A stretch of DNA of 64,000 nt. Source: Methylotenera sp. (GTDB lineage: Bacteria; Pseudomonadota; Gammaproteobacteria; Burkholderiales; Methylophilaceae). Numbering within the stretch: position 1 is the first letter of the stretch; each line of letters opens with the position of its first letter. A model generated the notes under the pieces. It had not been told where the DNA came from, did not search any database, and saw nothing but the letters and a program-made list of their open reading frames with translations. Location: NCBI GenBank assembly GCA_020622105.1, contig JAHRYP010000004.1, positions 62,001 to 126,000 of the forward strand, written 5' to 3'. Made by a program: the position numbers and the translations under genes. Below, one piece after another: positions 44,651 to 60,751 of this stretch.

Positions 44651-46063
44651 ATGAAAACAACGCTAAACCAAAATATTGTGCTCCGGCTCGTATTAGATAA
44701 AAAACCCTACGGCGCAATCGGCGGCAAGCTTGAATTTACTGATAATGACAGCGGTCAGCCTTACATCCTGTTTGACGACCACCGAGACGCGCCTACCGGT
44801 TTTGGTGTTAAGGTAGCTAAAACCAAGAAAACTTACATCATCCAACGACGCCTGCCTGACGGTAAAGTTATCAAAGCAAAAGTAGGAAACGTCTCAGACT
44901 TTACCAGCATCGAGGTCGCCAGAGACAAAGCACGTAACCTGGTGCAAGTGGCAAAAGAAACCGGTAAAAATCCAAATAGTATCGAACGTAAGAAGCTAGC
45001 AAGCGAAATCACCTTATCCGAAGCGTTCACGCAATACCGGGAATTCCTGCTAGGGCGCCCCAAACCAGCAAAATTTAATACCCTAGCCGTACTGGATAGG
45101 TCTATTAACAAATTCGAAGACTGGAAAAACAGGAGAGTCAAAGACCTATCCGGCAACGAGATCTCACAAATGTTTGATAGTATCGCGGCGACAAGAAGAA
45201 CAACAGCTGAGCAGACATTTAGATGGGCTAACGTAGCTGTCAGCCATGCTATCAAACTCGAAATTCATGACGCGGCATCGCATCAAAGAAGTCCGAGCCT
45301 TACCTACAACCCCTTTACAATTCTTCAAGTAAACGAGAAATATCGCACTCGTTCGCAGCTTGAGTCAGACTATAAAGCAAAGGGAGTTAGAAAACCTCTC
45401 TCACTCAAAGAAAACATGGGGAACTGGCTCAACGCCATCCACGGGCGCCGCGCAAAGAATCGTACTGGTTGCGACTATCTATTCCTGACAACGCTTTGGG
45501 GAACCCGAAAGAATGAGGGCGCGAACCTGAAGTGGTGGCATTTAATTTCTGATGCCGAAAAAGCGACATCTTCTTATGTAGACCTGGAAGCTAGGACCGT
45601 ATATTTCAGAGACACAAAAAACGGCGAAGACCATGAACTCCCGTTGGCAGACGCAGCTTATGAAATCCTCTTGCAACGTAAGCACATCATAAAGAAAGAC
45701 AAGAACTCCAAATGGGTTTTCCCAGCCGAGTCTAAATTCAGTAAAACTGGTCATTACAGCGACGCAAGCTCACTGATTGACTATATTTGTGAAGACGCCG
45801 GCATCAAAAAGATAGGCATGCACGACCTGCGCAGAAGCATGGGCAGAATTGCAGAAGAACTAACAAGTTACTCAATGGTGAAACGAGTTCTAAATCACAG
45901 CAACATGAGCGACCCAACGGCGCGTTATACGGAAACAGAATGGCAAAGACTTAAAGAAGTCCTGCAGCGCATCGAACTTCATATTTTAGCAACCGCACCG
46001 GTCGTTTTTAATATGCTACTGACGCCAAAATATGCAATGATGTCGGCTGACAAATTGGAATAA
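44651..46063 (+). CDS. Tyrosine-type site-specific integrase
   Basis: A 470-residue phage/island integrase. An N-terminal arm-binding type domain (TYIIQRRLPDGKVIKAKVGN) is followed by a core-binding SAM-like domain (TLSEAFTQYREFLLG). The catalytic domain has Arg I in LWGTRKNEGANL, His-x-x-Arg in MHDLRRSMG, His in VLNHSNMSD and the Tyr nucleophile in ARYTETEW. It is intact. Its place next to mutS with repeats upstream marks the left end of an integrated element. Confidence 0.92.
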   Translation: MKTTLNQNIVLRLVLDKKPYGAIGGKLEFTDNDSGQPYILFDDHRDAPTGFGVKVAKTKKTYIIQRRLPDGKVIKAKVGNVSDFTSIEVARDKARNLVQVAKETGKNPNSIERKKLASEITLSEAFTQYREFLLGRPKPAKFNTLAVLDRSINKFEDWKNRRVKDLSGNEISQMFDSIAATRRTTAEQTFRWANVAVSHAIKLEIHDAASHQRSPSLTYNPFTILQVNEKYRTRSQLESDYKAKGVRKPLSLKENMGNWLNAIHGRRAKNRTGCDYLFLTTLWGTRKNEGANLKWWHLISDAEKATSSYVDLEARTVYFRDTKNGEDHELPLADAAYEILLQRKHIIKKDKNSKWVFPAESKFSKTGHYSDASSLIDYICEDAGIKKIGMHDLRRSMGRIAEELTSYSMVKRVLNHSNMSDPTARYTETEWQRLKEVLQRIELHILATAPVVFNMLLTPKYAMMSADKLE

Positions 46064-47303: not shown

Positions 47304-48116
47304 ATGCGTATTGACCTAATGCATGCATTCAGCAACACCCCAGAAAAACCTGATTTTGTTTTACCTGGCTTTGTGGCCGGCACCGTAGGACTTATTACAA
47401 GCCCCGGAGGAACCGGGAAATCAATCTGGATCACCGAAGCAGCTTTGTGCGTAGCTTCCAAGGATGCAAATAAATCCTTACTTAATCTGCCGATTACTAT
47501 TCACGGCCCTGTGGTCATATTAAATGGTGAAGACCCAAAAGGTATGATCCATGCCCGTTTACATTACATGGGGGCATTTCTGGACATGGATACACGTGAT
47601 TTGGTAGCTAAAAACACTGTAATACAGTGTCTTTACGGAAATGGATTTAATATCCTTGATCCTATTAGCCAGAATTGGTTGCTCGAAATATTATCTACTA
47701 ACAATGCACGGTTATGTGTCATTGACACCCTGAGCCGATGTCATAGCGCAGATGAGAACAGCAATAAGGAAATGGCACAGGTGATGTCTATCCTGGAAAG
47801 AATTGCCAGGGATTCCGGCGCCGCAATCGTCATGGTACATCATACCTCAAAATCAATGGCGGCCCATGGCCGCACTGATGAGCAGCAGAGTGCCAGGGGC
47901 GCTTCCCTTCTGGTCGACAACGCCAGATGGCAGAGCTTTATGGCTGTCATGTCAGAAGCGGAAGCCAAGAAGCAAAAAATCAAAGCTGACGACCGCAAGT
48001 ATTACGTCCGCTTTGGCATCAGCAAACAAAACTATGGCCAGCCTTTTGCTGATCACTGGTATAAGCGCCATGAGGGTGGCGTTCTTCTGCCTATTGTTGC
48101 TGAGAAGGTTCTTTAA
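47304..48116 (+). CDS. repA: RepA-like replicative helicase (IncQ/RSF1010 type)
   Basis: A 270-residue RecA-fold ATPase close in length to RSF1010 RepA, a hexameric 5'-3' helicase. Walker A is SPGGTGKS at residues 33-40, Walker B is RLCVIDTLSR near 140, followed by VMVHHTSKS and the RGASLLVDNARW region. AAGGAG lies 7 nt upstream. Its stop overlaps the start of the repC-like gene (TAATG), which couples them as in IncQ plasmids. It should unwind the element origin. RepB primase is not visible in this window. Confidence 0.85.
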   Translation: MRIDLMHAFSNTPEKPDFVLPGFVAGTVGLITSPGGTGKSIWITEAALCVASKDANKSLLNLPITIHGPVVILNGEDPKGMIHARLHYMGAFLDMDTRDLVAKNTVIQCLYGNGFNILDPISQNWLLEILSTNNARLCVIDTLSRCHSADENSNKEMAQVMSILERIARDSGAAIVMVHHTSKSMAAHGRTDEQQSARGASLLVDNARWQSFMAVMSEAEAKKQKIKADDRKYYVRFGISKQNYGQPFADHWYKRHEGGVLLPIVAEKVL

Positions 48117-48952
48117 TGAGCAAATCCGCAGAAAGCATCTTCGCCATGCTGGATCCCGCACATCTGACAGATGGGCTTTTCAAACCAACTGCACGGTCTG
48201 GGGAAACTCTGATTAATGTTGAAGGTTTCCGTGAAGACGAACCCATAAAGTTTGAGGGGCCTCAGTTGGCATCAACTCACCAATCCATTCTGCTTGCAAT
48301 TCTAGCGCGCACCGCCCGGCAAGCCAAAGAGCAGTCATTGATCCCTCCAGGTGATACCAACGGCATCCATAAGAAACAAATGGGGCTGCTTGCAGTTACT
48401 GGAAGTGCAAGCAGACAAGCCATCTCAGTGCTTAAGTGCTCTCCCTACGCCCTTCTCTTGGACGCAGGCATGGGTACAAGCAGCAAAGAATATGTGTTAC
48501 TTAGCAAATTGCTTGGGGAGTTGGCATCGGTAACGATACATCGCGGAAACGGAAGCAATGCCACTTCCAGCAGGCTGATATCATTTCAGCATGACGATAA
48601 CCAGCTCACCATAGGAATAAATTGGCGACTGTCCGGTTCTATTTCACGCAGGCAGAACTCCCCAGTTTCTCTGGTCGAACGGCGGTCGCTAGGCAACGAC
48701 CCCGTGACCAAGATCCTTCACGCTTGGCTGTGCGCATTTATAAGACTTGGAGGCCCGTTGATGGCTGGAGAAGGGGCGGAAATCGATACCTTAATCAGGC
48801 ACGTTTGGGGTAAACGACCCTGCTCAAAAGATGTCATGAAAAATCGTCGCGCGGCGATCATACGAGCCATCAAAAAAATTAACACCCTGCCCGGCTGGGA
48901 AACCAGCATCAAGAAGACTCACGTTTACGTGAGGCGCACCAAGCAGCTATAA
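48116..48952 (+). CDS. repC: RepC-like replication initiator (IncQ type)
   Basis: A 278-residue protein with the position and length of RSF1010 RepC, which binds oriV iterons. Recognisable parts are THQSILLAILARTARQAKE, a winged-helix-like middle, and KILHAWLCAFIRLGGPL with the C-terminal basic helical segment KNRRAAIIRAIKKINTLPGW. It overlaps repA by one base and is followed at 49021 by three 22-bp direct repeats that would be its binding sites. Assignment rests on the repA pairing plus general similarity. Confidence 0.8.
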   Translation: MSKSAESIFAMLDPAHLTDGLFKPTARSGETLINVEGFREDEPIKFEGPQLASTHQSILLAILARTARQAKEQSLIPPGDTNGIHKKQMGLLAVTGSASRQAISVLKCSPYALLLDAGMGTSSKEYVLLSKLLGELASVTIHRGNGSNATSSRLISFQHDDNQLTIGINWRLSGSISRRQNSPVSLVERRSLGNDPVTKILHAWLCAFIRLGGPLMAGEGAEIDTLIRHVWGKRPCSKDVMKNRRAAIIRAIKKINTLPGWETSIKKTHVYVRRTKQL

Positions 48953-50711: not shown

Positions 50712-50739
50712 AAAAAGCCAGGGTAGCCCCGGCTTTTTT
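50712..50739. terminator. Bidirectional terminator-like hairpin
   Basis: AAAAAGCC at 50712-50719 then AGGG pairs with CCCCGGCTTTTTT around a TAG loop, one mismatch. T runs flank on both strands. It bounds the repeat region from the left direct repeat of the operon. Confidence 0.7.
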
Positions 50740-51047: not shown

Positions 51048-51554
51048 CTATATCCCTGGAATTTCTGCCAACCATAAACTCAGGTTTTCCTGAACTTCCG
51101 GATCAGCCAAGCCCAAATCAGAATTACAAAGGATAAGATGATCCTGGAAGTCTTCCGGCCAGTCTTCCGTCCCGGAATGCAAATCATCGAGGGCTAGCCA
51201 GTGCTGCACGGCATTCCGGCGCACGTGCGAGATGATCTGCTCAAAACGCGTCATGTGGCTGAACGGGTCGTATCCGCTCTCTGTTTTCATATGCCGGTGC
51301 CAAGTGGCGCCAATGACTCGTTCTCGTATACTTTCAGGCAATTTTGATAAGGTTTTGTCATAGCCTAGCTCCCTTACCCACGACGTGGATAACACAATAT
51401 CCACGTGCGGATGCCGGCCCAGGATGCGCGCCAGGATGTGCGCGTGCATCATTAAATAACCGGGTGCCCGCAACTCCAGCCCGTGCTTACCGCGGTACAC
51501 GGCGTCGGGGTGCAACACGCCATCCAGATCTAAAAATAGGGTTATCCTGTCCAT
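51048..51554 (-). CDS. HAD-type phosphatase, copy A
   Basis: A 168-residue small HAD hydrolase. Motif I is LFLDLDGVLHP with both Asp residues (9 and 11), motif II is IVLSTSWV, and the acidic motif IV is LALDDLHSGTEDWP. Small proteins of this type resemble the HAD domains named from Swiss-army-knife RNA repair proteins; their substrates are mostly unknown. The ATG at 51554 has GGAG 5 nt upstream; the frame extends to 51578. It is paralogous to the HAD gene at 51707-52213 and is the last gene of the operon, separated by 150 bp of tandem repeats. Confidence 0.82.
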   Translation of the reverse strand: MDRITLFLDLDGVLHPDAVYRGKHGLELRAPGYLMMHAHILARILGRHPHVDIVLSTSWVRELGYDKTLSKLPESIRERVIGATWHRHMKTESGYDPFSHMTRFEQIISHVRRNAVQHWLALDDLHSGTEDWPEDFQDHLILCNSDLGLADPEVQENLSLWLAEIPGI

Positions 51555-51578
51555 TGGTGCTCCAGTTTTTGTTAACAC

Positions 51579-51667
51579 CGGAAAAACTTGCAGTTTTCCT
51601 TATTAACTCCCGAAAAAGTTGCAGCTTCCTTTATTAATTGCGGAAAAAGTTGCATTGTTTATTGATT
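51579..51667. repeat. Three ~31-bp tandem repeats between the HAD genes
   Basis: Units of about 31 bp share GGAAAAA(C/G)TTGCA followed by TTCCTTTATTAA. The third is shorter. No spacers separate them. They may be a promoter/operator array for HAD copy A or the product of slippage. Confidence 0.65.
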
Positions 51668-51706
51668 ACATACGCCTTCTTGATACAACGCTGGCGTCTG
51701 GTTCAA

Positions 51707-52213
51707 CTATCGCGCATGTTGCCGCTCTAGTAATGCGGTATTCAGGGCCGCCTGGACTTCCGGATCACTTAACCCTGTGTCTGGATGACACAAAACCAAA
51801 TGCTGAGCATGACTCGATGGCCAGTCCTGGCTTTGCGAGTGCAGGTCATCCAAGGCTAGCCAGTTTGTGATCCCGTTGCTTTCCACGTGCGCCATGATCT
51901 GCTGAAAGCGTGTCAGGTCACTGAAGCGCAGCGTGCTATACATGTCGACGGCAGCAAGCTCAATATTGGTATGACCTACAACGCGCTCCCGGATTCCAGC
52001 CGACAGGTAAGCCAGGGTGGCCTCAAAACCGAAGGCGCCAACCCAGGATGTGGACAGCACGATTTTGACTTCCGGATGGTACGCCAGGGCTTCTTCAAGT
52101 ATCGGGGCGTGCTGAAACAAGGCGCCGGTCTTCATTAATTCCGGGCGGCCTTGCGTGCTGTACACTGCGTCAGGGTGCAACACCCCGTCAAAATCCAAGT
52201 ATAAATAGGTCAT
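51707..52213 (-). CDS. HAD-type phosphatase, copy B
   Basis: A 168-residue paralogue of copy A. LYLDFDGVLHP (both catalytic Asp), KIVLSTSWV, and WLALDDLHSQSQDWP are all retained, so both copies should be active. It overlaps the upstream hypothetical gene by 4 bp. The two share residues along their whole length (for example DPEVQ near the C-terminus and RERV before it), so they arose by tandem duplication. A nucleic-acid end-healing role is possible but unproved. Confidence 0.82.
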   Translation of the reverse strand: MTYLYLDFDGVLHPDAVYSTQGRPELMKTGALFQHAPILEEALAYHPEVKIVLSTSWVGAFGFEATLAYLSAGIRERVVGHTNIELAAVDMYSTLRFSDLTRFQQIMAHVESNGITNWLALDDLHSQSQDWPSSHAQHLVLCHPDTGLSDPEVQAALNTALLERQHAR

Positions 52214-52566
52214 GGGTTCAGATCCTCCAGCGTGCGCGCGTAAGCCTGTTTATCGTCACTAGTACGTATTAACGTTTTGATCGGGCGCACTTCGGTGGGC
52301 ATCCTAAACGGCTTGATCAGCCGCCAGCCTTCCTGGCCATCGTAGTCATGGCGTACTAACCGGGCGCGGTCGCTAAACGCAATAACCAGGTCCCGCGCTA
52401 CGTTTTGCAAGCCAAAATCGTCGTCGTACTCAATGTCAGCAAGCCCCATAAATTCAATCCAGGTGCACTGATGCCCTGTGCTTTCCGCGCCGATAAATAC
52501 GATATCAACGAGAGTGTGGCCTGATGCGTAAATGACTTTTGTGGTTTCTTCGAGTAAATTTGTCAT
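52210..52566 (-). CDS. Hypothetical protein
   Basis: A 118-residue protein, mixed alpha/beta by appearance, with HQCTWIEFMGLADIEYDDDFG and DLVIAFSDRARLVRHDYDGQEGW. No signal peptide, membrane segment or known motif. It overlaps its neighbours by 4 bp on both sides, so it is a coupled member of the operon. Family not recognised. Confidence 0.65.
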   Translation of the reverse strand: MTNLLEETTKVIYASGHTLVDIVFIGAESTGHQCTWIEFMGLADIEYDDDFGLQNVARDLVIAFSDRARLVRHDYDGQEGWRLIKPFRMPTEVRPIKTLIRTSDDKQAYARTLEDLNP

Positions 52567-52952
52567 TTCGTTGTTGTCCTCAATAATTCCAGCACGCGCG
52601 CGTTAAATTCCGGCTCCAGTGCAAATCCGGCGTCTGGATTGTCCAGTGCAAATTCCGGGATGTTAAAACGCTCACATAACCAAGCGGCTACGCCCTGGAC
52701 CAGCGCCAGTCCACCGTTGCTGCACACCAGGAAACCCTTCAAGGCCGGGCTATGCATGCACACAAATAAGGCCAGATCATGGGCTTCTTCCTTGGGAAAC
52801 ATGCGGTCTATCACCTTTTGCCGGCGTACCACTTGCCAGCCTGGTTGCAGGTCCAGGTAAGGCGCTGCAGGGTCGGTGATCACGATAACTCCCCAATCTG
52901 CGCTCGCAGGTAAGGCTTCCGCATCGTCTTTTGTGCAGATCTGCAATTTCAT
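52563..52952 (-). CDS. Degenerate dual-specificity phosphatase-like protein
   Basis: A 129-residue protein whose pattern follows the phosphatase at 53346-54071: DWGVIVITDPA matches DWAVVSITEPE, LQPGW matches LQDGW, and FLVCSNGGLALVQGVAAWL matches the P-loop region. In the active-site loop the Cys (77) is kept, but the His before it is Val and the essential Arg is Ala (83). It is therefore probably catalytically dead and may bind or regulate the active paralogue. It overlaps both neighbours by 4 bp. Confidence 0.7.
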   Translation of the reverse strand: MKLQICTKDDAEALPASADWGVIVITDPAAPYLDLQPGWQVVRRQKVIDRMFPKEEAHDLALFVCMHSPALKGFLVCSNGGLALVQGVAAWLCERFNIPEFALDNPDAGFALEPEFNARVLELLRTTTK

Positions 52953-53353
52953 AATTGGATGCCCCGCCAGCTCGCTATGGTTTTAGCCAGCGCTAATACC
53001 TTGTTTAAATCAGGCTCTCCCGCGCGTTGGTGCCCCAGCTGATACACTGAGCCGCGCTGAGTCAAAGCGAACCCTTGCGTCAGGCTTAATTCCCAAATCA
53101 TGCTGGTGATGCGGATTTTAATGGTGCCTACCAACTCGCCCACCAGATGCGCGCGTTGACCTTCACCGTGCGAGACAGCAAGCATGACGACGGACCAGTC
53201 ATCGAGAATGCCAGTGATCGCGCGCTCATTAAAACTGGTCTTTATCATTACTGCGTGCTCCAAGGCGCTAATTTCGCCATGCGTTGCTATGTGCACGCTG
53301 CCGCCGGATTTTGCCAGGCTGGCATTCAGGGATTGCAAAAGTGTTTCACCCAT
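52949..53353 (-). CDS. Unrecognised protein, paralogue of the 54863 gene
   Basis: A 134-residue protein from the ATG at 53353 (GAGG lies 6 nt upstream; the frame runs back to 53452 inside the previous gene). The C-terminal half shares a pattern with the product of 54863-55309: ITSxI, QxGFxLTxxGSxY, and GEPxxxxxLAL. It has no known motif. It overlaps the phosphatase upstream by 8 bp and the next gene by 4 bp. Confidence 0.65.
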   Translation of the reverse strand: MGETLLQSLNASLAKSGGSVHIATHGEISALEHAVMIKTSFNERAITGILDDWSVVMLAVSHGEGQRAHLVGELVGTIKIRITSMIWELSLTQGFALTQRGSVYQLGHQRAGEPDLNKVLALAKTIASWRGIQL

Positions 53354-54071
53354 TTTCATCCTCTCCCTTGCCAGCTTGCCAAACCAGCTGATAGACGTAC
53401 TTGTTGTATTGTTTATAACTATGATCAAACGGCAAGTCGTAAGCTCTGGCAATCCACTTTGCCACCGCTGCTGATCTGCTTACTCCCGCCTTGCAGTGCA
53501 CCAGAATTCCATGAACCTCTGGCGCTGCTGCGTGCACAAAGTTAACAATAATTTTCGCGTCGCGCTCGGTCATCAGGACGTATGGTTCGTCTGTCTTCGT
53601 CGATAAATCCACGTCGTGAAAATTAACCCGGCAAATGCTATGCCAGCCATCCTGTAATTTAGCCTCACCCGGGAATTGTTCCGGCTCCGTGATCGATACC
53701 ACCGCCCAATCAGGCCAACCAAGGGCACGCTCGGCTGTGAATTTATTGGCAAACATTACCTTTTGCAGCTGCGGCCAGCCTGTCGCTTTGCGTAAAAACT
53801 GCGTTAACGTCAGCATGCGCGTACGAACGCCAGGCTCCAGCGCGCGCAAGTCGTTAGCAATGGCCGGTATCCCAGTTTCAATTTTTGGTACTTGGTTATC
53901 TTCCAGGTAAGCCAGGGCTGAAGCGCTCAAGCTATCGCTGTCAGCCTTTAATTCAGCCAGCGCCATGTCCGTGACAGCCAGAGGCAGGCCGGGCGTCAAC
54001 GCGTCCAGCTTGCGCTCAAGGGTTAGCCGCTTTAACGGCTGCGGGTCGGCGATTATTAATGTTTCGGTCAT
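53346..54071 (-). CDS. Dual-specificity-type phosphatase with PIN-like N-terminus
   Basis: A 241-residue protein. The C-terminal half (from about residue 107) is a cysteine phosphatase with the P-loop VHCKAGVSRSAAVAKWIA (His192, Cys193, Arg199) and a likely general acid in NFHDVD. The first ~100 residues begin TLIIADPQPLKRL and have LPLAVTDMALAEL, which resembles the start of a PIN nuclease domain, but later PIN acidic residues are not clear. This fold call is tentative. It overlaps the metallophosphoesterase upstream by 4 bp (ATGA). Confidence 0.78.
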   Translation of the reverse strand: MTETLIIADPQPLKRLTLERKLDALTPGLPLAVTDMALAELKADSDSLSASALAYLEDNQVPKIETGIPAIANDLRALEPGVRTRMLTLTQFLRKATGWPQLQKVMFANKFTAERALGWPDWAVVSITEPEQFPGEAKLQDGWHSICRVNFHDVDLSTKTDEPYVLMTERDAKIIVNFVHAAAPEVHGILVHCKAGVSRSAAVAKWIARAYDLPFDHSYKQYNKYVYQLVWQAGKGEDENG

Positions 54072-54853
54072 ATTTCCACTGCCAGTTGCGGGTTGAAGTC
54101 AAAATTCTCACAGTCGCGGTTATATAGGCAGTAGCCGCGCGGATTACAAATTACGCGCGTACCACCCTTCACATAATCAAAGCTCGTATGCGTATGCCCA
54201 TGAATCCATAAATCCATGCGCCCAAGTAAATGATCCAGCCGGCTGGCAAAACAGGCGCTCAGCAGGTCGGTGGCGTACTGCGGGGCGACACTGTCAAAGC
54301 TTGGCAAGTGGTGCGTGATGATCACAGTTTTTCCGTCAAACGGCGTATCCAGCTGCTCTGTCAGCCATCGGGTCGAAGTGGTGAACAAATCCACCGCGTC
54401 TTGCGGCTTAAACTTGTTAACAAAACCGCCGCCATTGTGCGTCCCGCTGGCCTTCTTGATCAGCCGAAAATCATTGAGCATGTAAGCCTCTCGCTTGCAA
54501 TCCACGCGTCGCTCACGGCCAAACAAGAGGAAATCCATCCATAACGTGCAGCCAAGGAACCTCACGCCATCGATGATCACGGCATCATTTTCCATGAAAT
54601 GGATCCGGTCTTCCTTGCTTGCCAAATCGCGTAGGGTTTGTGTCAGATTGTCCATTTCCGTCCGGTAAAACTCGTGATTACCCGCCACATAAAGGATCTG
54701 TGCTTTTGTCTTGGATAACTGCTCTCTGGCCCAAGCGAGGCCGCGCGTGCCGGTGCTGATGTCGCCGGCCAGCACGATAATATCCGCGTCCCTTACCTGT
54801 AGCTCGTAATTCGAAAACTCGGTATGCAGGTCGCTTAAAATGTGAATCTTCAT
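54068..54853 (-). CDS. Calcineurin-like metallophosphoesterase
   Basis: A 261-residue binuclear metal phosphoesterase with all motifs in order: HILSDLH (residues 5-10), VLAGDIS (28-34), VAGNHEFYR (57-65), ITHHLP (about 175), and HGHTHTSFD (about 222). It could hydrolyse phosphomono- or diesters, including nucleotides or nucleic acid ends. AAGGGT lies 5 nt upstream. It is 9 bp after the preceding gene and overlaps the phosphatase downstream. Confidence 0.9.
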   Translation of the reverse strand: MKIHILSDLHTEFSNYELQVRDADIIVLAGDISTGTRGLAWAREQLSKTKAQILYVAGNHEFYRTEMDNLTQTLRDLASKEDRIHFMENDAVIIDGVRFLGCTLWMDFLLFGRERRVDCKREAYMLNDFRLIKKASGTHNGGGFVNKFKPQDAVDLFTTSTRWLTEQLDTPFDGKTVIITHHLPSFDSVAPQYATDLLSACFASRLDHLLGRMDLWIHGHTHTSFDYVKGGTRVICNPRGYCLYNRDCENFDFNPQLAVEI

Positions 54854-54862
54854 GTTTACCCT

Positions 54863-55309
54863 TTAATAAAAAAACTCAGGCACGCCAAAATAGCGCCCAT
54901 AGTCGCTGCGGTTAAAGTAGACACACAATAACGCCAGCTGCTCAAACGTCGGCTCTCCTTCGCCCTTTGTGGCCATCATATAAAGCGAGCCGCTCGCCGT
55001 GAGCAGGTAGCCGCTCTGCAGGTCCAGCCTGGTGATCTTGCTGGTGATCCAGGTGTTGCCGGATCCGTCGCAAATGTCGCCCAACAAGACAACTTTATAC
55101 TCGCCCGCGGCCTCGATACTTACCAGATGCCAATTCGTGATCACCAATTTTGGGTAAGCCGCCGGCACCTCACCCAACAAGGGCGACAGGTCGGCGTCTG
55201 TCGCGTGCCTGATTTGACAGTGCTCGCGGTTTTTACGAATGATGTCATCCAGGCCCCGAGGGATCATGGCTTCCAGTTTTGCGGTTAATGACGCGTCATT
55301 GCTTATCAT
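54863..55309 (-). CDS. Unrecognised protein, paralogue of the 52949 gene
   Basis: A 148-residue protein from ATG 55309 (GGGAG 7 nt upstream; a longer frame to 55360 is unlikely because it overlaps the mini-gene). The C-terminal half has WITSKITRLDLQSGYLLTA, SGSLYMMATKGEGEP and FEQLALL, matching the gene at 52949-53353. It starts one base after the stop of the 21-codon mini-gene, so translation is coupled. Family not recognised. Confidence 0.65.
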   Translation of the reverse strand: MISNDASLTAKLEAMIPRGLDDIIRKNREHCQIRHATDADLSPLLGEVPAAYPKLVITNWHLVSIEAAGEYKVVLLGDICDGSGNTWITSKITRLDLQSGYLLTASGSLYMMATKGEGEPTFEQLALLCVYFNRSDYGRYFGVPEFFY

Positions 55310-55310
55310 T

Positions 55311-55376
55311 TCAGGACTCCCAGCAGCTGGCTTCCAAATCCACCACGATGACTTCGTCATATTTGTTGTTTGCCAT
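55311..55376 (-). CDS. 21-codon mini-gene matching a DEDDh exonuclease N-terminus
   Basis: ATG at 55376, AAGGA 6 nt upstream, and stop TGA at 55311. The peptide includes YDEVIVVDLEASCWES, which matches the first motif of DEDDh 3'-5' exonucleases (VVDxEATCWE, first catalytic Asp and Glu), then stops. It is too short to see by ORF length. Either it is the remnant of a deleted exonuclease gene that now acts as a leader ORF for 54863, or a real short peptide. Confidence 0.55.
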   Translation of the reverse strand: MANNKYDEVIVVDLEASCWES

Positions 55377-55385
55377 TTTTTATCC

Positions 55386-55748
55386 TTACTTATTGATGCA
55401 GCCGGCGCACAACACGCGCACCTTGCCGCCTATTACTAATTTTCTTCCTCTCGAACCACAGCAATAGCAGGTCACGCTTGCCCACTGCTGATACACATAA
55501 ATCGCGCGCAACACGGCAAGCTCTGATGCTGGATCAGCTACCATGCGCACATCCAGCAAGCCGTGATCCTCGCGGATCATAAAGATCTGCACCTTGCAGC
55601 CGCGCATGGCGGTTAAAATGCTATCCACCAAGGCCTTCCAGCCTTGGGGGAAGTCGTAGCTGCCAGCCCCGAAGTTGTCGCATAAATCCAGGTTTAGCCG
55701 CCGACAAGTCTCGCGCACCCAGCGATCTGAATTAAATTTGTCAGCCAT
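55386..55748 (-). CDS. Zinc-ribbon protein of an unrecognised family, paralogue 3
   Basis: A 120-residue protein. The N-terminal part has FPQGWKALVDSILTAMRGCKVQI, then HGLLDVRMVADPASELAVLRAI, and a C-terminal four-Cys ribbon, CYCCGSRG ... VLCAGCINK. It aligns with the two upstream genes (PxGW, G-L-V, ELxxxRA, TCxxCG, VLCxxC). It starts directly at the stop of paralogue 2. The shared ribbon suggests nucleic-acid or protein binding. Function unknown. Confidence 0.72.
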   Translation of the reverse strand: MADKFNSDRWVRETCRRLNLDLCDNFGAGSYDFPQGWKALVDSILTAMRGCKVQIFMIREDHGLLDVRMVADPASELAVLRAIYVYQQWASVTCYCCGSRGRKLVIGGKVRVLCAGCINK

Positions 55749-56201
55749 TTAATAATCATCCAGCCAGGTATTGGTGCGCCTGGTTCCGTTCTCCTGGTCC
55801 ATCTTTTCCAGGCTTTCCAGCACGGCCATTCTGCAGCCGCGCTGACACAGCACTTTGACGTCTTGCCGGAGCACCGCGCGCTTGCCGGTGTTGTCCCCGC
55901 AAAGCTCGCAGGTGATTTTTGACTTTTCGCGGGCTACGGATGTAGCGCGCCACATCTTGACTTCATCTTTCTTGTTTTCCACATCGCACCAAATCTCCAG
56001 AGCCCCAAACTCGGTCTTCACCCCGTGGATCACGGCGCCGCAGTCCTTGATGGCGTCAATAAAATCCTTGACGATGTCGGCCCAGCCGTAGCTGTAATAA
56101 ATTTCGGCTTGCTCGGAAACCATCACACCGGCTTGGCTAGCCCAGTCTTTGAAATGAAAGACACCATTAAACTCGTCGATTTTTACGCGATGATCGCTCA
56201 T
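55749..56201 (-). CDS. Zinc-ribbon protein of an unrecognised family, paralogue 2
   Basis: A 150-residue protein of the same build: SYGWADIVKDFIDAIKDCG, FGALEIWCDVENKKDEVKMWRA, then ITCELCGDNTGKRA and VLCQRGCRMAVLE. It ends NTWLDDY, as paralogue 1 ends GTWLDYF. AAGGGT lies 4 nt upstream. The last Cys pair is spaced CxxxC rather than CxxC. No known family. Confidence 0.72.
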   Translation of the reverse strand: MSDHRVKIDEFNGVFHFKDWASQAGVMVSEQAEIYYSYGWADIVKDFIDAIKDCGAVIHGVKTEFGALEIWCDVENKKDEVKMWRATSVAREKSKITCELCGDNTGKRAVLRQDVKVLCQRGCRMAVLESLEKMDQENGTRRTNTWLDDY

Positions 56202-56210
56202 GCTTACCCT

Positions 56211-56753
56211 TTAAAAATAGTCCAACCAGGTTCCCGTGCGGGCAGGCTCCGCTTTTTCTGGCTCCTGTTTTTTCAGGCAATCCGCACATAGCACGCCAAT
56301 CCGCTTGTTTTTACCATGAATCCCGAAGCGCCCGCGGATGCCGCAATCCTCGCAGGTAACCCTGGCTTCGTTGCTCGCCCTATCAATGGCGCGCCAGGCG
56401 CGAAGCTCGGCTTCTGGGTCTTCCGTGTTAAACAGAACCACCAGGCGCCCGATATCATCCCGGACGTCCAGGATCACCAGATCGGCACCGCGCAGGTCGT
56501 AAAACATGTCATCCACAATCCGGAACCAGCCGCGCGGGTACAGGTAGCTACCCAATAACCCGATGTCTACCCCATATTCGTCGCTCATGCGCTTCACATG
56601 CTCAATCGAGGTTAGGGCGCGCTTCGGTGGCTCCTGGTTTTCCTGGTCGTCATCCCGCTGCACCAGGATCGTCTTAATGATTGGCTTGTCCGCAGGGTCC
56701 GGATCATTCGGGTGTTTGCCGTTTTTGTTGTCCTTGTTAGCAAAAGCCGACAC
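56211..56753 (-). CDS. Zinc-ribbon protein of an unrecognised family, paralogue 1
   Basis: A 180-residue protein that starts with GTG at 56753, AGGAG 7 nt upstream, overlapping the AAA gene by 17 bp. The first 45 residues are charged and probably disordered. The family part has LYPRGWFRIVDDMFYDLRGAD, GRLVVLFNTEDPEAELRAWRA, VTCEDCGIRGRF and VLCADCLKK. It ends GTWLDYF. It is the longest and best ribbon of the three. Confidence 0.72.
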   Translation of the reverse strand: MSAFANKDNKNGKHPNDPDPADKPIIKTILVQRDDDQENQEPPKRALTSIEHVKRMSDEYGVDIGLLGSYLYPRGWFRIVDDMFYDLRGADLVILDVRDDIGRLVVLFNTEDPEAELRAWRAIDRASNEARVTCEDCGIRGRFGIHGKNKRIGVLCADCLKKQEPEKAEPARTGTWLDYF

Positions 56754-57684
56754 GTTGCTTCTCCTTTCTGCCGGCCATCAAGTCATCCGGTGTGATGTGG
56801 TCACGGTCGGCCACAATCGCCTTTAACATCCCGTCTTCCAGACTCTGGCGAACCGCGCGCGGCAGCTGGTCTATCAGCGCCTTGATCACGTTTTCATTCA
56901 GGCCTTCCTGTAAGAGCCGCCCGTAGGGCTTGTTTTTGCGCAAACTTTTATAAACACTGGCAATCACGGCACGCATGCCGGCTTGATCCGGGCGCTGGAT
57001 GTAAAAAGGGCGCACGCGGGACAGGATGGCTTCAGGTACATTGGCAACATCATTAGCAGTTGCGATCCAGACAATCTTGCTGGTGTTCAACTCAACATCC
57101 ACCGCCTCATCCTTGAACCGCTCCGCCGTATGGCGCTCCAGCAAGCCGTAAAAGCTATTCATCGGGTTGTACTTGCTGCCGCTGCTTTTGTCTAACTCGT
57201 CGATCAAAAACAAGGGATTACCAACGGCGCTATCTGCCAGGCTTTTTGCGACAAAGCCCACGCTGCCATTTTCCCATTGCACGCTGCCGCCGCTTAACGC
57301 AAATGACGCAGTGATTGTGGATAATGCGATCTCGTAATATGGCAAGCCCAAAGTCCGGGCGAGCTCATTTGCAAATAGCGTCTTACCCAGACCTGGCTCG
57401 CCACATAACAAAATCGGCTGTGCCTCGTATGGCTGGTTAACTTTGGATAAGGCAATGGCGTTAGCCTCGTATACGTCCACCACGGCAGCAAAATTAGGGA
57501 AGCGATAACGCAGATTTTGAAAACCTTTGAGGTTGTCCACGATTTTCAGGTCACGCTTTGGATCCCATAGCTTTTTGAGGACAGGGGCCAGTCTGGCTCG
57601 CACTTCGCGGCCCTGGTCCTTCAGCTCGCTGACGCGCGCCTTCACGGCGTCGGGTTTTGAAATGTAAAAATCAGGTGTATCCAT
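56737..57684 (-). CDS. AAA+ ATPase (Lon/MoxR-like fold)
   Basis: A 315-residue AAA+ protein. Walker A is GEPGLGKT (95-102), Walker B LFLIDELD (157-164), sensor 1 WIATAND near 210, and an arginine finger region SRVRPF near 225. The C-terminal lid has LPRAVRQSLEDGMLKAI. The sequence resembles the ATPase module of Lon but lacks a protease domain. It would remodel a partner, possibly one of the small operon proteins. It overlaps both neighbours. Confidence 0.85.
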   Translation of the reverse strand: MDTPDFYISKPDAVKARVSELKDQGREVRARLAPVLKKLWDPKRDLKIVDNLKGFQNLRYRFPNFAAVVDVYEANAIALSKVNQPYEAQPILLCGEPGLGKTLFANELARTLGLPYYEIALSTITASFALSGGSVQWENGSVGFVAKSLADSAVGNPLFLIDELDKSSGSKYNPMNSFYGLLERHTAERFKDEAVDVELNTSKIVWIATANDVANVPEAILSRVRPFYIQRPDQAGMRAVIASVYKSLRKNKPYGRLLQEGLNENVIKALIDQLPRAVRQSLEDGMLKAIVADRDHITPDDLMAGRKEKQRVGFC

Positions 57685-58007
57685 TTTTTTTCTGCTTCCA
57701 TTTTTAAGTCCGGATCCACAAAGGGCGGGTTAACCATCATGACGCGCATGAACTTGTTCAAGTCATCACGGATATTCAGCATGTCGGCCAAGGCTAGCAG
57801 CTGCTTGATCTCCAGTTCATAGACCCGCTCCGGGCGGTTGATTGAGGTCAGTTCACAGGCGTCGACGGCGCATCTAAGCCACGCCTCGATGTAGCGCGCT
57901 ACGCTTGCTGGGTGCTGATAAATGTAACGAGAGATCGCATCCTCACAGCTGCCAGGCACTGACGCCCCTGCCGCTGTGAAAAATGCATCTGGTAAATGAC
58001 CAGACAC
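57642..58007 (-). CDS. Hypothetical protein
   Basis: A 121-residue, largely helical protein with SCEDAISRYIYQHPASVARYIEAWLRCAVDAC. It ends 43 bp inside the AAA gene, an unusually long overlap, and begins with GTG at 58007, 22 bp after the first gene, without a clear ribosome site. No family recognised. It probably works with the AAA protein. Confidence 0.55.
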   Translation of the reverse strand: MSGHLPDAFFTAAGASVPGSCEDAISRYIYQHPASVARYIEAWLRCAVDACELTSINRPERVYELEIKQLLALADMLNIRDDLNKFMRVMMVNPPFVDPDLKMEAEKKWIHLIFTFQNPTP

Positions 58008-58029
58008 AATGATGAAAAGGGTGAGCTGC

Positions 58030-58314
58030 TTAAGAAGCTTTTACAGCGTTCTCTTCATCTTTCATCAGATCGCGCATTACTGAGCGAACCTTATGTCTGA
58101 TACCAAGCTCATCGATGAGCTCTTCGATGGTTGAGTACAGTGGGTCAAATAGATGAGTAGATGGAGCGCGTTGTCCTGTTTCCACTAAAAACTCAACATA
58201 GGTCTCTACAAGATCATGCATGGTCTTGTAGTTTTCAGAAATGTAATCGTCCAGATCACGCTCCAGAACTACTTCAGGGGTGCTAGTACTGAATTTGCTG
58301 ATGACTGGCTTCAT
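58030..58314 (-). CDS. Hypothetical protein, first gene of the operon
   Basis: A 94-residue acidic helical protein (LERDLDDYISENYKTMHDLVETY ... EELIDELGIRHKVRSVMRDLM). AAAGGAT lies 6 nt upstream of the ATG. It opens the operon about 80 bp after the promoter. No family recognised; small first proteins of such operons are often regulators, but no DNA-binding motif is clear. Confidence 0.6.
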   Translation of the reverse strand: MKPVISKFSTSTPEVVLERDLDDYISENYKTMHDLVETYVEFLVETGQRAPSTHLFDPLYSTIEELIDELGIRHKVRSVMRDLMKDEENAVKAS

Positions 58315-58393
58315 AAATTAATCCTTTTGTTAGTGGCTGATAGGATTCCGAATACAACCTCAATTCGAGAAACAGAATAAATTGAGTTTATGA

Positions 58394-58422
58394 ATTATAG
58401 CGACAAGGCGAGATATTGTCAA
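58394..58422 (-). promoter_or_regulatory. Perfect sigma70 promoter of the cargo operon
   Basis: On the minus strand TTGACA (58422-58417), a 17-bp spacer, then TATAAT (58399-58394): every base matches the consensus. A GACAA...TTGTC dyad spans the spacer and -35. CTCAATT/AATTGAG form another dyad between promoter and first gene (58361-58387). Confidence 0.9.
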
Positions 58423-58646: not shown

Positions 58647-59765
58647 TTATTTTATTTCATGAGCGTACTTTGCTTTAAGAGGGAGCGCCCGAGCACTGTT
58701 CTTAAGCTTCTGCTTATTCCTGACAGGACGGCTCACTTTAACATTTGTCGGGGCCAAACTGACACCACCCCCCTGGAAGCTGCTGCCATAAAAACTTGCT
58801 GTTTTATCAACCCTATGGCCCAAAACCTTGCTTGTTAAATCAGGATCAGCACCATTTATAATGGCACGTTTACAATCTGCTGCCATGGCATGCCGCGCCG
58901 TATAACAAGTGACATCTTGCTTATGATCCGGCCATATTTTTCGGCAGAGGTCACGAATATGGGTGGTTAAGGAATTCCCGTTTTTAACTTTTATACAAAA
59001 GCTTTGTCCCTGTCGTTCTGGATCCACATAGTCAAGCAGGATATCTTTAATAAAGCCATCAGCCACATCAAAACTCCTCCATGGTTGTCCTCCATTTTCA
59101 GTTATCTTTGCACCCCAAATCCGTGCTCTTAACCTATGTCCAATCTGAACAAATTCGATACCACGCTCTATTTCTGCAGGGCGCGCTCCACTTAGTAATA
59201 GTGCAAGCGCAGGGCAGGTAAAATGGCCCACTGGAAGAGTATCTGCCAATATTTCCCGCCAATCGTGCGGCAATTTAGTCAGTGAAGATTTTTTGCTTTC
59301 ACGCTTGACCTTTGGCGTTTCAACCTTGCGATATTCTGCAGCCCTCATTTCAGAGAGTGTTATAAGGGTTTTAAAACTGGGATGCATCACAATCATCTCA
59401 CCAATATCAGCTTTACCTTTATTGAATTCATTTATAGCTTCTTCATACTTTTCAAAAAGCATTCTTTTGCATATCGGCAAGATTGACTGCACCTGCTTTC
59501 TAAGTGTTGATACCTTGTTGCAAGAGCTGACTTTTTGAATCACCAATGATGCATCAACGGGTGGAATTAATATTGATGTGTCTGGATATGTTCCAAAAAC
59601 ATTTGCAGCCACTTTCTCGTAATCCATAAGGGATTTTTCAGATATCATTAAAGGCTGTTTCTTCTTGGTTCTCTCCGCCACTCCCAGGGCATCCTTTAAC
59701 AAATCAAGCATCCTTTTTTCTCTACTTGCTTCCATATCATTTAATTTGATATCCTTGTTCTTCAT
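58647..59765 (-). CDS. Tyrosine recombinase-like protein
   Basis: A 372-residue protein. The C-terminal half has ALLLSGARPAEIERGIEF (Arg I and Glu), CYTARHAMAADCKRAI (ARH with Arg II), VLGHRVDKTASFYG (His and the candidate Tyr nucleophile). The N-terminal 170 residues are helical and not like the first integrase, so this is a distinct recombinase. It lies next to the right direct repeat of the cargo operon. It is intact and may mobilise the neighbouring segment. Confidence 0.8.
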   Translation of the reverse strand: MKNKDIKLNDMEASREKRMLDLLKDALGVAERTKKKQPLMISEKSLMDYEKVAANVFGTYPDTSILIPPVDASLVIQKVSSCNKVSTLRKQVQSILPICKRMLFEKYEEAINEFNKGKADIGEMIVMHPSFKTLITLSEMRAAEYRKVETPKVKRESKKSSLTKLPHDWREILADTLPVGHFTCPALALLLSGARPAEIERGIEFVQIGHRLRARIWGAKITENGGQPWRSFDVADGFIKDILLDYVDPERQGQSFCIKVKNGNSLTTHIRDLCRKIWPDHKQDVTCYTARHAMAADCKRAIINGADPDLTSKVLGHRVDKTASFYGSSFQGGGVSLAPTNVKVSRPVRNKQKLKNSARALPLKAKYAHEIK

Positions 59766-60247: not shown

Positions 60248-60751
60248 ATGAAGGCCCACATGATTAAAATTTTGATGGCAGGACTTTTATTGGCTTTCTC
60301 GGCCATAGCTTATGCAGACCTGATCAACGGTCGCGTTGTATCAGTAAGCGATGGGGACACCATTACTGTTTTGGATAACACAAACACCCAACACAAGATT
60401 AGATTGGCTGGTATTGATGCGCCTGAGAAAAATCAAGCATTCGGGACTGCCTCCAAGCGATCACTTTCAGATATGGTTTTCGGCAGACAGGTTGCCGTTG
60501 AATGGAGTAAGCATGACCGGTACGGGCGCACGGTAGGTAAGGTAATCGTTAACGGCATGGATGCTAACTTGGAACAGATTAAGCGTGGGATGGCCTGGTT
60601 TTATGTGAAGTACCAAAATGAACAGTCTGTTCAGGATCGCCTAGATTATGCTGGCGCCCAGGATGACTCACAAAAGAATCGTCTGGGTTTATGGAGTGAC
60701 GCAAATCCAGTGGCTCCCTGGGACTTTAGGAAGCAGACCAAGAATAATTAG
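60248..60751 (+). CDS. Secreted SNase-like nuclease (accessory copy)
   Basis: A 167-residue thermonuclease-family protein with a Sec signal peptide (ILMAGLLLAFSAIAYA). Ca-binding and catalytic residues are in SVSDGDTITVL, IRLAGIDAPEKNQAFG and DRYGRTVGKV, and WSDANPVAPWDF closes the domain. It resembles plasmid- and ICE-borne nucleases of this type. It is about half identical in motifs to the chromosomal gene at 38189 but clearly a separate lineage. No strong ribosome site is seen. Confidence 0.88.
   Translation: MKAHMIKILMAGLLLAFSAIAYADLINGRVVSVSDGDTITVLDNTNTQHKIRLAGIDAPEKNQAFGTASKRSLSDMVFGRQVAVEWSKHDRYGRTVGKVIVNGMDANLEQIKRGMAWFYVKYQNEQSVQDRLDYAGAQDDSQKNRLGLWSDANPVAPWDFRKQTKNN

Follow-up and report, generated by a model that had tools for sequence, protein, structure and literature searches.

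Two described systems that protect E. coli from phages contain a metallophosphatase: DS-9 pairs it with a HAD phosphatase and acts on a substrate that is given as unknown, and DS-8 fuses it to a NACHT NTPase (PMC13092281). On the phage side, a HAD_SAK-type family has been proposed to remove terminal phosphates in RNA repair, and jumbo phages are predicted to use phosphoesterases against cyclic nucleotides or damaged RNA ends that result from host immunity (PMC7824862). Here we describe an operon of Methylotenera sp. that encodes a metallophosphoesterase (MPE), HAD phosphatases, and an AAA+ ATPase among its 14 products, and that lies within a 64,000-nucleotide stretch of contig JAHRYP010000004.1 (positions 62,001 to 126,000; hereafter, the window, in whose numbering all coordinates below are given). 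Its gene families recur together at other loci in reshuffled order. Our preferred reading, to which we give a little under an even chance, is that this operon represents one copy of a cassette that is modular and spreads horizontally, and whose products would have phosphate esters at the ends of nucleic acids, or nucleotides, as their substrates.

The operon shares with DS-9 the combination of a metallophosphatase with a HAD phosphatase, and the joining of a metallophosphatase to a P-loop NTPase has a counterpart in DS-8. Unlike DS-9, the operon adds genes for a Cys phosphatase (PTP), zinc-ribbon proteins, proteins of a family here labelled G8, and a Lon-type AAA+ ATPase. With phage RNA repair, it shares HADs of the HAD_SAK_2 family and the end-phosphate chemistry, but no RNA ligase or polynucleotide kinase was recognised in the cassette.

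Layout of the operon

The operon consists of 14 open reading frames (ORFs, from the ORF list of the window), all on the minus strand, running from 58314 to 51048. An earlier reading of the letters and ORFs (hereafter, the sequence-only reading) had proposed a single minus-strand run of about 15 genes with 4–17 bp overlaps, preceded by a perfect promoter. The one-strand run stands, with a count of 14 genes, and the overlap range holds for part of it: four junctions are 4-bp overlaps and the AAA and ZR1 genes overlap by 17 bp, but g13 and AAA overlap by 43 bp, PTP and g5 overlap nominally by 107 bp (8 or 14 bp, judging from the translation, if g5 starts at an internal ATG), and the remaining junctions are gaps of 0–25 bp, with 128 bp ahead of the last gene. 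The promoter (58394..58422, minus strand) matches the sigma-70 consensus TTGACA-17-TATAAT at 12 of 12 positions and is the sole exact consensus match in the window. Under a looser rule, seven promoters were found in the window (shuffle mean of 7.6), as were 10 terminators (shuffle mean of 9.5); because such signals are no commoner than in shuffled sequence, the weight of this promoter lies in the perfection of its match. The longest stem among the ten terminator-like hairpins belongs to one with 12 pairs followed by a T-rich stretch (50712..50738, minus strand), at which the operon ends. The operon, as first observed, is therefore confirmed.

Products of the operon

Curated Pfam cut-offs are passed by the AAA+ ATPase (56737..57684; 315 aa; PF00004, 57.5 bits), by MPE (54068..54853; 261 aa; PF00149, 50 bits; phrog_1649, 3e-55), and by both HAD_SAK_2 phosphatases (PF18143, cut-off 27.5 bits; phrog_1818), HADa (51048..51578; 102.3 bits) and HADb (51707..52213; 97.9 bits); an AAA+ ATPase, a metallophosphoesterase, and two HADs had been named in the sequence-only reading. 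The DSP-type (dual-specificity) Cys phosphatase PTP (53346..54071; 241 aa; phrog_5614) looks active, with the signature HCKAGVSRS, and scores 31.7 bits against the DSPc profile, just under the cut-off of 33.5. Its degenerate copy, dPTP (52563..52952), has lost the catalytic Cys and Arg of the HC(x5)R signature that the intact copy and the aligned relatives keep, so the proposed pair of an active and a degenerate enzyme is upheld. PTP has an N-terminal extension of about 100 aa that is absent from 10 aligned relatives; the PTP frame of one other locus (L228) is also long (273 aa).

The remaining products include three zinc-ribbon paralogues, ZR1 (56211..56753; 180 aa; ZRa family), ZR2 (55749..56201; 150 aa), and ZR3 (55386..55748; 120 aa), and two G8-family proteins, g8 (54863..55360; 165 aa; perhaps of a SANTA-like fold) and g5 (52949..53452; an ORF from TTG, with the start perhaps at ATG 53359 or 53353). 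Paralogy was judged by the score of each pair against 200 shuffles. Identities are 41/99 for ZR1/ZR3, 39/124 for ZR1/ZR2, 25/85 for ZR2/ZR3, 23/72 for g5/g8, 28/98 for dPTP/PTP, and 82/158 for HADa/HADb, and each pair scores well over its best shuffle, which bears out the two multiplied families that had been noticed by eye. None of the three zinc-ribbon paralogues, nor g8 or g5, scores high enough for a Pfam cut-off. Among the small genes, g3 (52210..52566; 118 aa) belongs to phrog_3972, a phage family of unknown function (1.1e-14), g13 (57642..58007; 121 aa) has no Pfam or NCBIfam family and a weak PHROG match (0.014), and g14 (58030..58314; 94 aa) matched nothing in PHROGs and nothing at cut-off in Pfam.

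The AAA+ ATPase has Walker A and B motifs and sensor 1, and its top matches among Protein Data Bank (PDB) profiles are Lon AAA modules (2e-35). It differs from Lon protease in lacking the N-terminal Lon domain and the protease: the NCBIfam lon model covers residues 77–224 only, the protein ends at residue 315, and the C-terminal Ser-Lys protease domain was not found in it.

In MPE, the motifs D.H, GD, GNHE, and GH.H are all present. Its AlphaFold 2 (AF2) model (pLDDT of 93.5) is nearest in Foldseek to PptH, followed by MPPED2, Rv0805, GpdQ, Dbr1, and Mre11. Metallophosphodiesterases of the PptH/MPPED2/Rv0805/GpdQ class share the predicted fold and the metal-site motifs with MPE, but at an identity of only 14–18 per cent, from which the substrate cannot be read off; as modelled, the nearest folds do not fix it.

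Most of the PDB matches of the PTP profile are dual-specificity phosphatases of eukaryotes, which would suit a protein phosphorylation switch, with phosphoproteins as the substrates of the DSP and MPE and the same client as the target of the AAA+ ATPase. We consider such a switch very improbable, as no kinase was recognised among the scanned products of the window or the scanned genes of relatives, and nucleic acid is the target suggested by the HAD_SAK_2 and exoribonuclease-like genes.

Recurrence of the cassette

We tabulated 25 distinct loci, each selected because two or more cassette families occur there, and found at least three families in 23 of them, in reshuffled order. The profiles used for labelling were built from these loci; those for PTP, HAD, MPE, AAA, G8, and ZRa started from the window sequences, to which relatives were then added. 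MPE occurs at 22 loci, AAA and HAD at 15 each, PTP at 13, G8 and the ZRf family at 8 each, and ZRa at 3, and g13 was seen in none of the other 24 loci. Relatives add 3' exonucleases (EXO1 at 16 loci, EXO2 at 5), a second metallophosphoesterase (MPE2, 10), and a divergently transcribed helix-turn-helix (HTH) regulator (5). Recurrence of the set, which the sequence-only reading had left to a neighbourhood check, is thus established: the families recur together, and the contrary outcome, that the set would be found nowhere else, did not occur. Two neighbourhoods had already appeared in the initial AAA and PTP searches, one of AAA with zinc-ribbon genes (L027 and L028) and one of AAA with MPE, PTP, and partly HAD (L034, L042, L043, and L044).

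Some of the gene order is also kept. The order AAA-ZRa-G8-MPE is conserved at two loci (L249 and L250), and a ZRa gene follows AAA at these two and at L027 and L028. The divergent HTH gene heads the cassette at L051/L061, L053, L054, L065, and L084, and it is weakly recognised (45 bits) at two plasmid loci with an AAA gene. One genome of the host's genus (G010, with a listed contamination of 6 per cent) carries three different cassettes (L051, L053, and L054), each of them HTH-headed. Between AAA and HAD at another locus lies a Pol-beta-like nucleotidyltransferase gene (L042:7001-8119) that scores under the Pfam cut-offs.

Active-site motifs are mostly intact across the cassettes. The D.H and GH.H motifs of MPE are present in 24/24 sequences, GNHE in 23/24, and the GD pattern in 21/24; the HADs keep DxDG in 24/24, motif II in 20/24, and motif IV in 22/24; and the HC(x5)R signature is found in 15 of the 16 PTP-labelled proteins, the sole miss being the dead copy. 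In these counts, misses are pooled, whether they come from fragments, variants, or true losses.

To survey loci picked by MPE similarity alone, we took the best 80 of at least 565 MPE relatives and recorded other families within 6 kb: two or more were present at 12 loci, one at 4, and none at 64. At those 12 loci, all 63 labelled neighbours share the strand of MPE (HTH, being divergent, was excluded from this count). As a marker of the cassette, MPE was tried and set aside as too widespread. A scan of genome contigs with AAA alone found no relative; the AAA query was swamped by Lon, and weak AAA matches were set aside.

A census of the host's family covered 187 genomes, the host included, with each cassette family taken from its own search; several matches share a locus. 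PTP gave 13 matches in 11 genomes (at E 1e-12, dead copy left out), 10 of them with another family within 6 kb; HAD_SAK_2 gave 22 matches over the cut-off in 15 genomes, 13 of them so accompanied; and G8 gave 16 matches in 9 genomes, one of which contains internal stops and was left unlabelled, with 11 of the other 15 accompanied. The window itself contributes one PTP, two HADs, and two G8s to these numbers. The host's own 133-kb contig contains no cassette family outside the cassette.

Further from the host, PTP was found in 8 of 300 genomes of the order sample, with cassettes beyond the host only in G279 and G318; the PTP loci of five genomes (G088, G312, G196, G170, and G313) contain no cassette, although one of the two PTP loci of G170 (L048) has a HAD gene 3–4 kb away on the opposite strand. 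A class-wide sample of 369 genomes gave PTP-profile matches in 3, one of them the host. Because these class-wide matches are rare and cassette-free outside the host, the cassette is concentrated near the host, with copies also in records titled Gallionella, Niveibacterium, Moraxellaceae, and Gammaproteobacteria.

In a tree of 90 MPE sequences, 21 of which are cassette-labelled, parsimony requires 9 label changes, compared with 18.9 in shuffles, and at least five changes are forced by well-supported branches. The window MPE sits on a long branch of its own, with a best identity of 55 per cent, so it was not copied recently from any relative in the comparison.

RNA repair and anti-phage defence

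The HADs belong to the Swiss-army-knife (SAK) RNA-repair family, HAD_SAK_2; HAD phosphatases of this kind were reportedly connected with RNA repair by Burroughs and Aravind in 2016. Two further families of relatives are exonuclease-like. EXO1 matches structures of Rv2179c-type 3'-5' exoribonucleases (3e-11) and shares DEDDh-type motifs with the 3' exoribonuclease RNase AS (Rv2179c), but it reaches only 21.7 bits (2e-4) against the RNase AS model, with its curated cut-off of 200, and the window copy lacks EXO1. EXO2 is an RNase_T protein (PF00929, 3e-20). Together, the SAK HADs and the 3' exonuclease-like genes of relatives support nucleic-acid end processing, one of the three roles (end processing, nucleotide signalling, or defence) that the sequence-only reading had put forward; a role in defence, the substrate, and a joint action of the products are putative.

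We also considered and rejected a heal-and-seal RNA repair operon. Searches of Pfam and PHROGs recognised no RNA ligase among the operon products. No RtcB was found in the host (96 per cent complete), in 13 of the 14 cassette genomes (host included), or in 10 others, and RtcB is present in G038, a genome of the host's genus; PF09414 was likewise not found in the host or in 13 of the 14 cassette genomes and is present in G018 (29 bits, in an 860-aa frame). These negatives concern RtcB and PF09414; a search with PF09511 recovered none of its controls. Because neither ligase was found in the host, re-sealing of RNA is unlikely, and the outcome would be trimming, clearance, or degradation.

Scans of 9 of the 14 proteins against PADLOC (g5, ZR2, ZR3, g13, and g14 left out) and of 8 of the 14 against NCBIfam matched the components of no one named anti-phage system and reached no cut-off for a named system, respectively. 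The gene set has no description that we found in Pfam, PHROGs, PADLOC, NCBIfam, or the open-licence PMC literature, in line with the remark of the sequence-only reading that it knew of no described system of this composition. The lowest PADLOC E-value is that of MPE residues 1–115 against the candidate PDC-S10 (4e-14; PADLOC gives no cut-offs here), and AAA matches TRIP13, IetA, and DolB at 7e-7 and weaker. One could picture anti-phage defence in which the MPE/HAD pair destroys or makes a nucleotide signal and the AAA+ ATPase is the sensor, by analogy with DS-8 and DS-9, both protective in E. coli (PMC13092281). The PDC-S10 match, a weak match of MPE to DS9_1 (NCBIfam; E-value of 0.0014), and one relative's cassette that directly adjoins a type I restriction hsdR gene (L225:7348-13826) favour this picture. 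Against it, MPE scores 17.5 bits where the DS9_1 cut-off is 420, which leaves it outside DS-9; the nearest MPE folds are PptH and MPPED2, with SMPDL3A only at rank 37; and the two-gene DS-9 does without the other cassette parts. On balance, we regard this form of anti-phage defence as rather unlikely.

Relatives in viruses

The products of the window fall into PHROG families (phrog_1649, phrog_5614, phrog_1818, and phrog_3972 for MPE, PTP, the HADs, and g3), and MPE has relatives in at least 584 viral stretches. We examined 87 viral loci, namely the best 80 of these and 7 PTP loci. ZRf was found at 12, PTP at 11 (including the 7 fetched by PTP), HAD at 4, AAA at 3, EXO1 at 1, and G8 at none of the 87. 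The ZRf gene starts at most 650 bp upstream of MPE at 10 viral loci (L164, L169, L173, L188, L195, L202, L205, L214, L221, and L222). From these counts, the enzyme families are shared with phages, and the AAA/G8 frame is mainly bacterial in this sample. The shared families and the ZRf-MPE neighbourhoods would fit counter-defence by mobile elements, whose phosphoesterases would remove the cyclic nucleotides or damaged RNA ends that host immunity produces, as predicted for jumbo phages (PMC7824862). However, the near absence of AAA and the absence of G8 from the viral loci, together with the location of the cassettes found in bacterial contigs, make counter-defence an unlikely explanation.

A SANTA-like family

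The AF2 model of g8 (from 7 sequences; mean pLDDT of 86.5) has as its top Foldseek match the crystal structure of the M18BP1 SANTA domain (9r6h; E-value of 0.012, probability of 1.00, 86 columns, query TM of 0.31). SANTA has been described as eukaryotic (Zhang et al. 2006, by its title, as listed in PMC5245964). The Pfam SANTA model (PF09133) matches one of nine G8/c22 proteins (E-value of 0.013), and a scan of 399 genomes of the order gave two matches: a c22 protein, which scores 21.0 bits and so lies exactly at the cut-off of 21, and a 45-residue stretch of a long unrelated frame, likely by chance. The likeness to the eukaryotic M18BP1/KNL2 SANTA thus comprises the top match of g8 and a weak Pfam match of one family member, but it stays at an E-value level of 0.01 and a low query TM, and the SANTA model did not find the host's own G8 genes in the 399-genome scan. 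PDB sequence profiles gave nothing meaningful for G8. These weak but convergent signals, model-based in part, perhaps indicate a bacterial SANTA-like family and are a lead, not proof. Beyond the two genes of the window (54863-55360 and 52949-53452), G8/c22 members lie at L042:5261-5584, L065:5993-6430, and L257:1378-1761.

Genomic setting

Among ten long proteins named in the first 46 kb of the window, eight are chromosomal genes (purL, glgP, htpG, ppk, lepA, degP, nadB, and mutS), and an island begins after mutS, at about 44.6 kb. Adjoining mutS is a tyrosine-recombinase-like gene (44651..46063, plus strand; NF040815, 1.6e-8, 34.5 bits, below the cut-off of 220), a probable island border. It is followed by an AAA_25 helicase-like gene (PF13481, 106 bits), which we take to be RepA-like by its place, and a RepC replication gene (PF06504, 61 bits), together at 47304..48952 on the plus strand. 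Upstream of the operon promoter lies an integrase-like gene (58647..59765, minus strand; phrog_1 integrase, weak, 0.0017), with 27 per cent identity over 189 aa to an ORF near an AAA gene of L032. With its AAA_25 gene, RepC, and two recombinase-like genes by mutS, the island is perhaps an integrated plasmid-like element. The GC content of the operon is 52.6 per cent, compared with 46.5 per cent for the adjoining chromosome and with a mean of 46.4 per cent and a maximum of 48.6 per cent in 75 windows of the same size from the first 44.6 kb. Its GC content, the Rep and recombinase-like genes, and an integrase at the edge of another copy (L057) point to a foreign-looking operon in a mobile context, to judge from sequence features. 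The operon DNA had no match among 72,556 plasmid records. A plasmid-maintenance or toxin-antitoxin module was considered and rejected, as none of the proteins that were scanned matched one in Pfam, PHROGs, PADLOC, or NCBIfam; nor did the set match a known phage module, the other outcome against which the sequence-only reading had set its proposal. Beyond the integrase-like gene, the island also contains an SNase-type nuclease gene (60248-60751) and the gene of a large SMC-like ATPase (60818-63448), whose matches in PADLOC include several defence ATPases, with LmuB (4e-20) as the best.

Proposed function and its alternatives

If the cassette acts as a unit on phosphate esters, its enzymes would most likely work in series. 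MPE would open or remove a phosphodiester, such as that of a 2',3'-cyclic end or of a nucleotide signal, whether cyclic or linear; the SAK HADs and the DSP phosphatase would take off the leftover phosphate; and, in relatives, the RNase AS-like and RNase T-type exonucleases would then degrade the 3' end once it has been cleaned. As an ATP-driven platform, the protease-free Lon-type AAA+ ring, with its zinc-ribbon and perhaps SANTA-like partners, might recognise or remodel the target. We infer this joint action, the substrate, and a setting of phage or plasmid conflict from the families and their neighbourhoods. A bolder version, which we find rather unlikely, is an undescribed conflict machine in which a Lon-type AAA+ ring that has lost its protease carries interchangeable phosphoesterases and 3' exonucleases, docked on it by zinc-ribbon proteins and by bacterial SANTA-like proteins, and thereby strips nucleotide signals or the ends of nucleic acids; relatives of SANTA, a module of centromere proteins in eukaryotes, would then exist in bacterial mobile elements.

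Several observations weigh against a cassette with a common function. Every family is missing from some of the copies (AAA occurs at 15/25 loci, MPE at 22/25), so the counts do not establish an obligate machine, and the window copy itself carries no exonuclease. The counts of EXO1, EXO2, MPE2, ZRf, and HTH are circular in part, since genes neighbouring cassettes served to define these families. Motifs are missed in places: the D.E motif of EXO1 is found in 20/21 sequences and its third motif in 16/21, the AAA Walker A and B patterns in 11/15 and 12/15, and the GD pattern of MPE2 in only 2/11. The 64 MPE loci that stand alone (some on short contigs), the lone copies in the family census (9/22 HADs, 3/13 PTPs, and 4/15 G8s, with some of the HADs and G8s on short contigs), and the two class-wide PTP genomes without a cassette at that locus add to this list, as does the MPE tree, on which the forced changes indicate that the cassette, although clustered, was assembled more than once.

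The variable content, the solitary occurrence of MPE, HAD, PTP, and G8, and the several origins on the MPE tree would be expected if the genes had no joint function and formed a store of separately useful or selfish phosphatase genes that pile up at integration hot spots. The upstream flanks of L063 and L079 share one gene run, perhaps a common integration site, and this too would agree with such a store. Yet the uniform strand of all 63 labelled neighbours, the overlapping starts in the window, the AAA-ZRa-G8-MPE order kept in two relatives, and the divergent HTH gene at five loci speak against it, and we consider a mere accumulation distinctly unlikely.

The operon and its recurrence are real, and the system is undescribed as far as the open-licence literature shows. 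The list of reshuffled copies makes both joint action and the bacterial SANTA-like family directly testable, and that family, if confirmed, would bear on the origin of a centromere protein module. If the cassette does act as a unit, a multi-enzyme phosphoesterase system would join the nucleotide-centred conflicts among bacteria, phages, and plasmids, and its copies would offer natural assays for what metallophosphatase-HAD pairs such as DS-9 act on.

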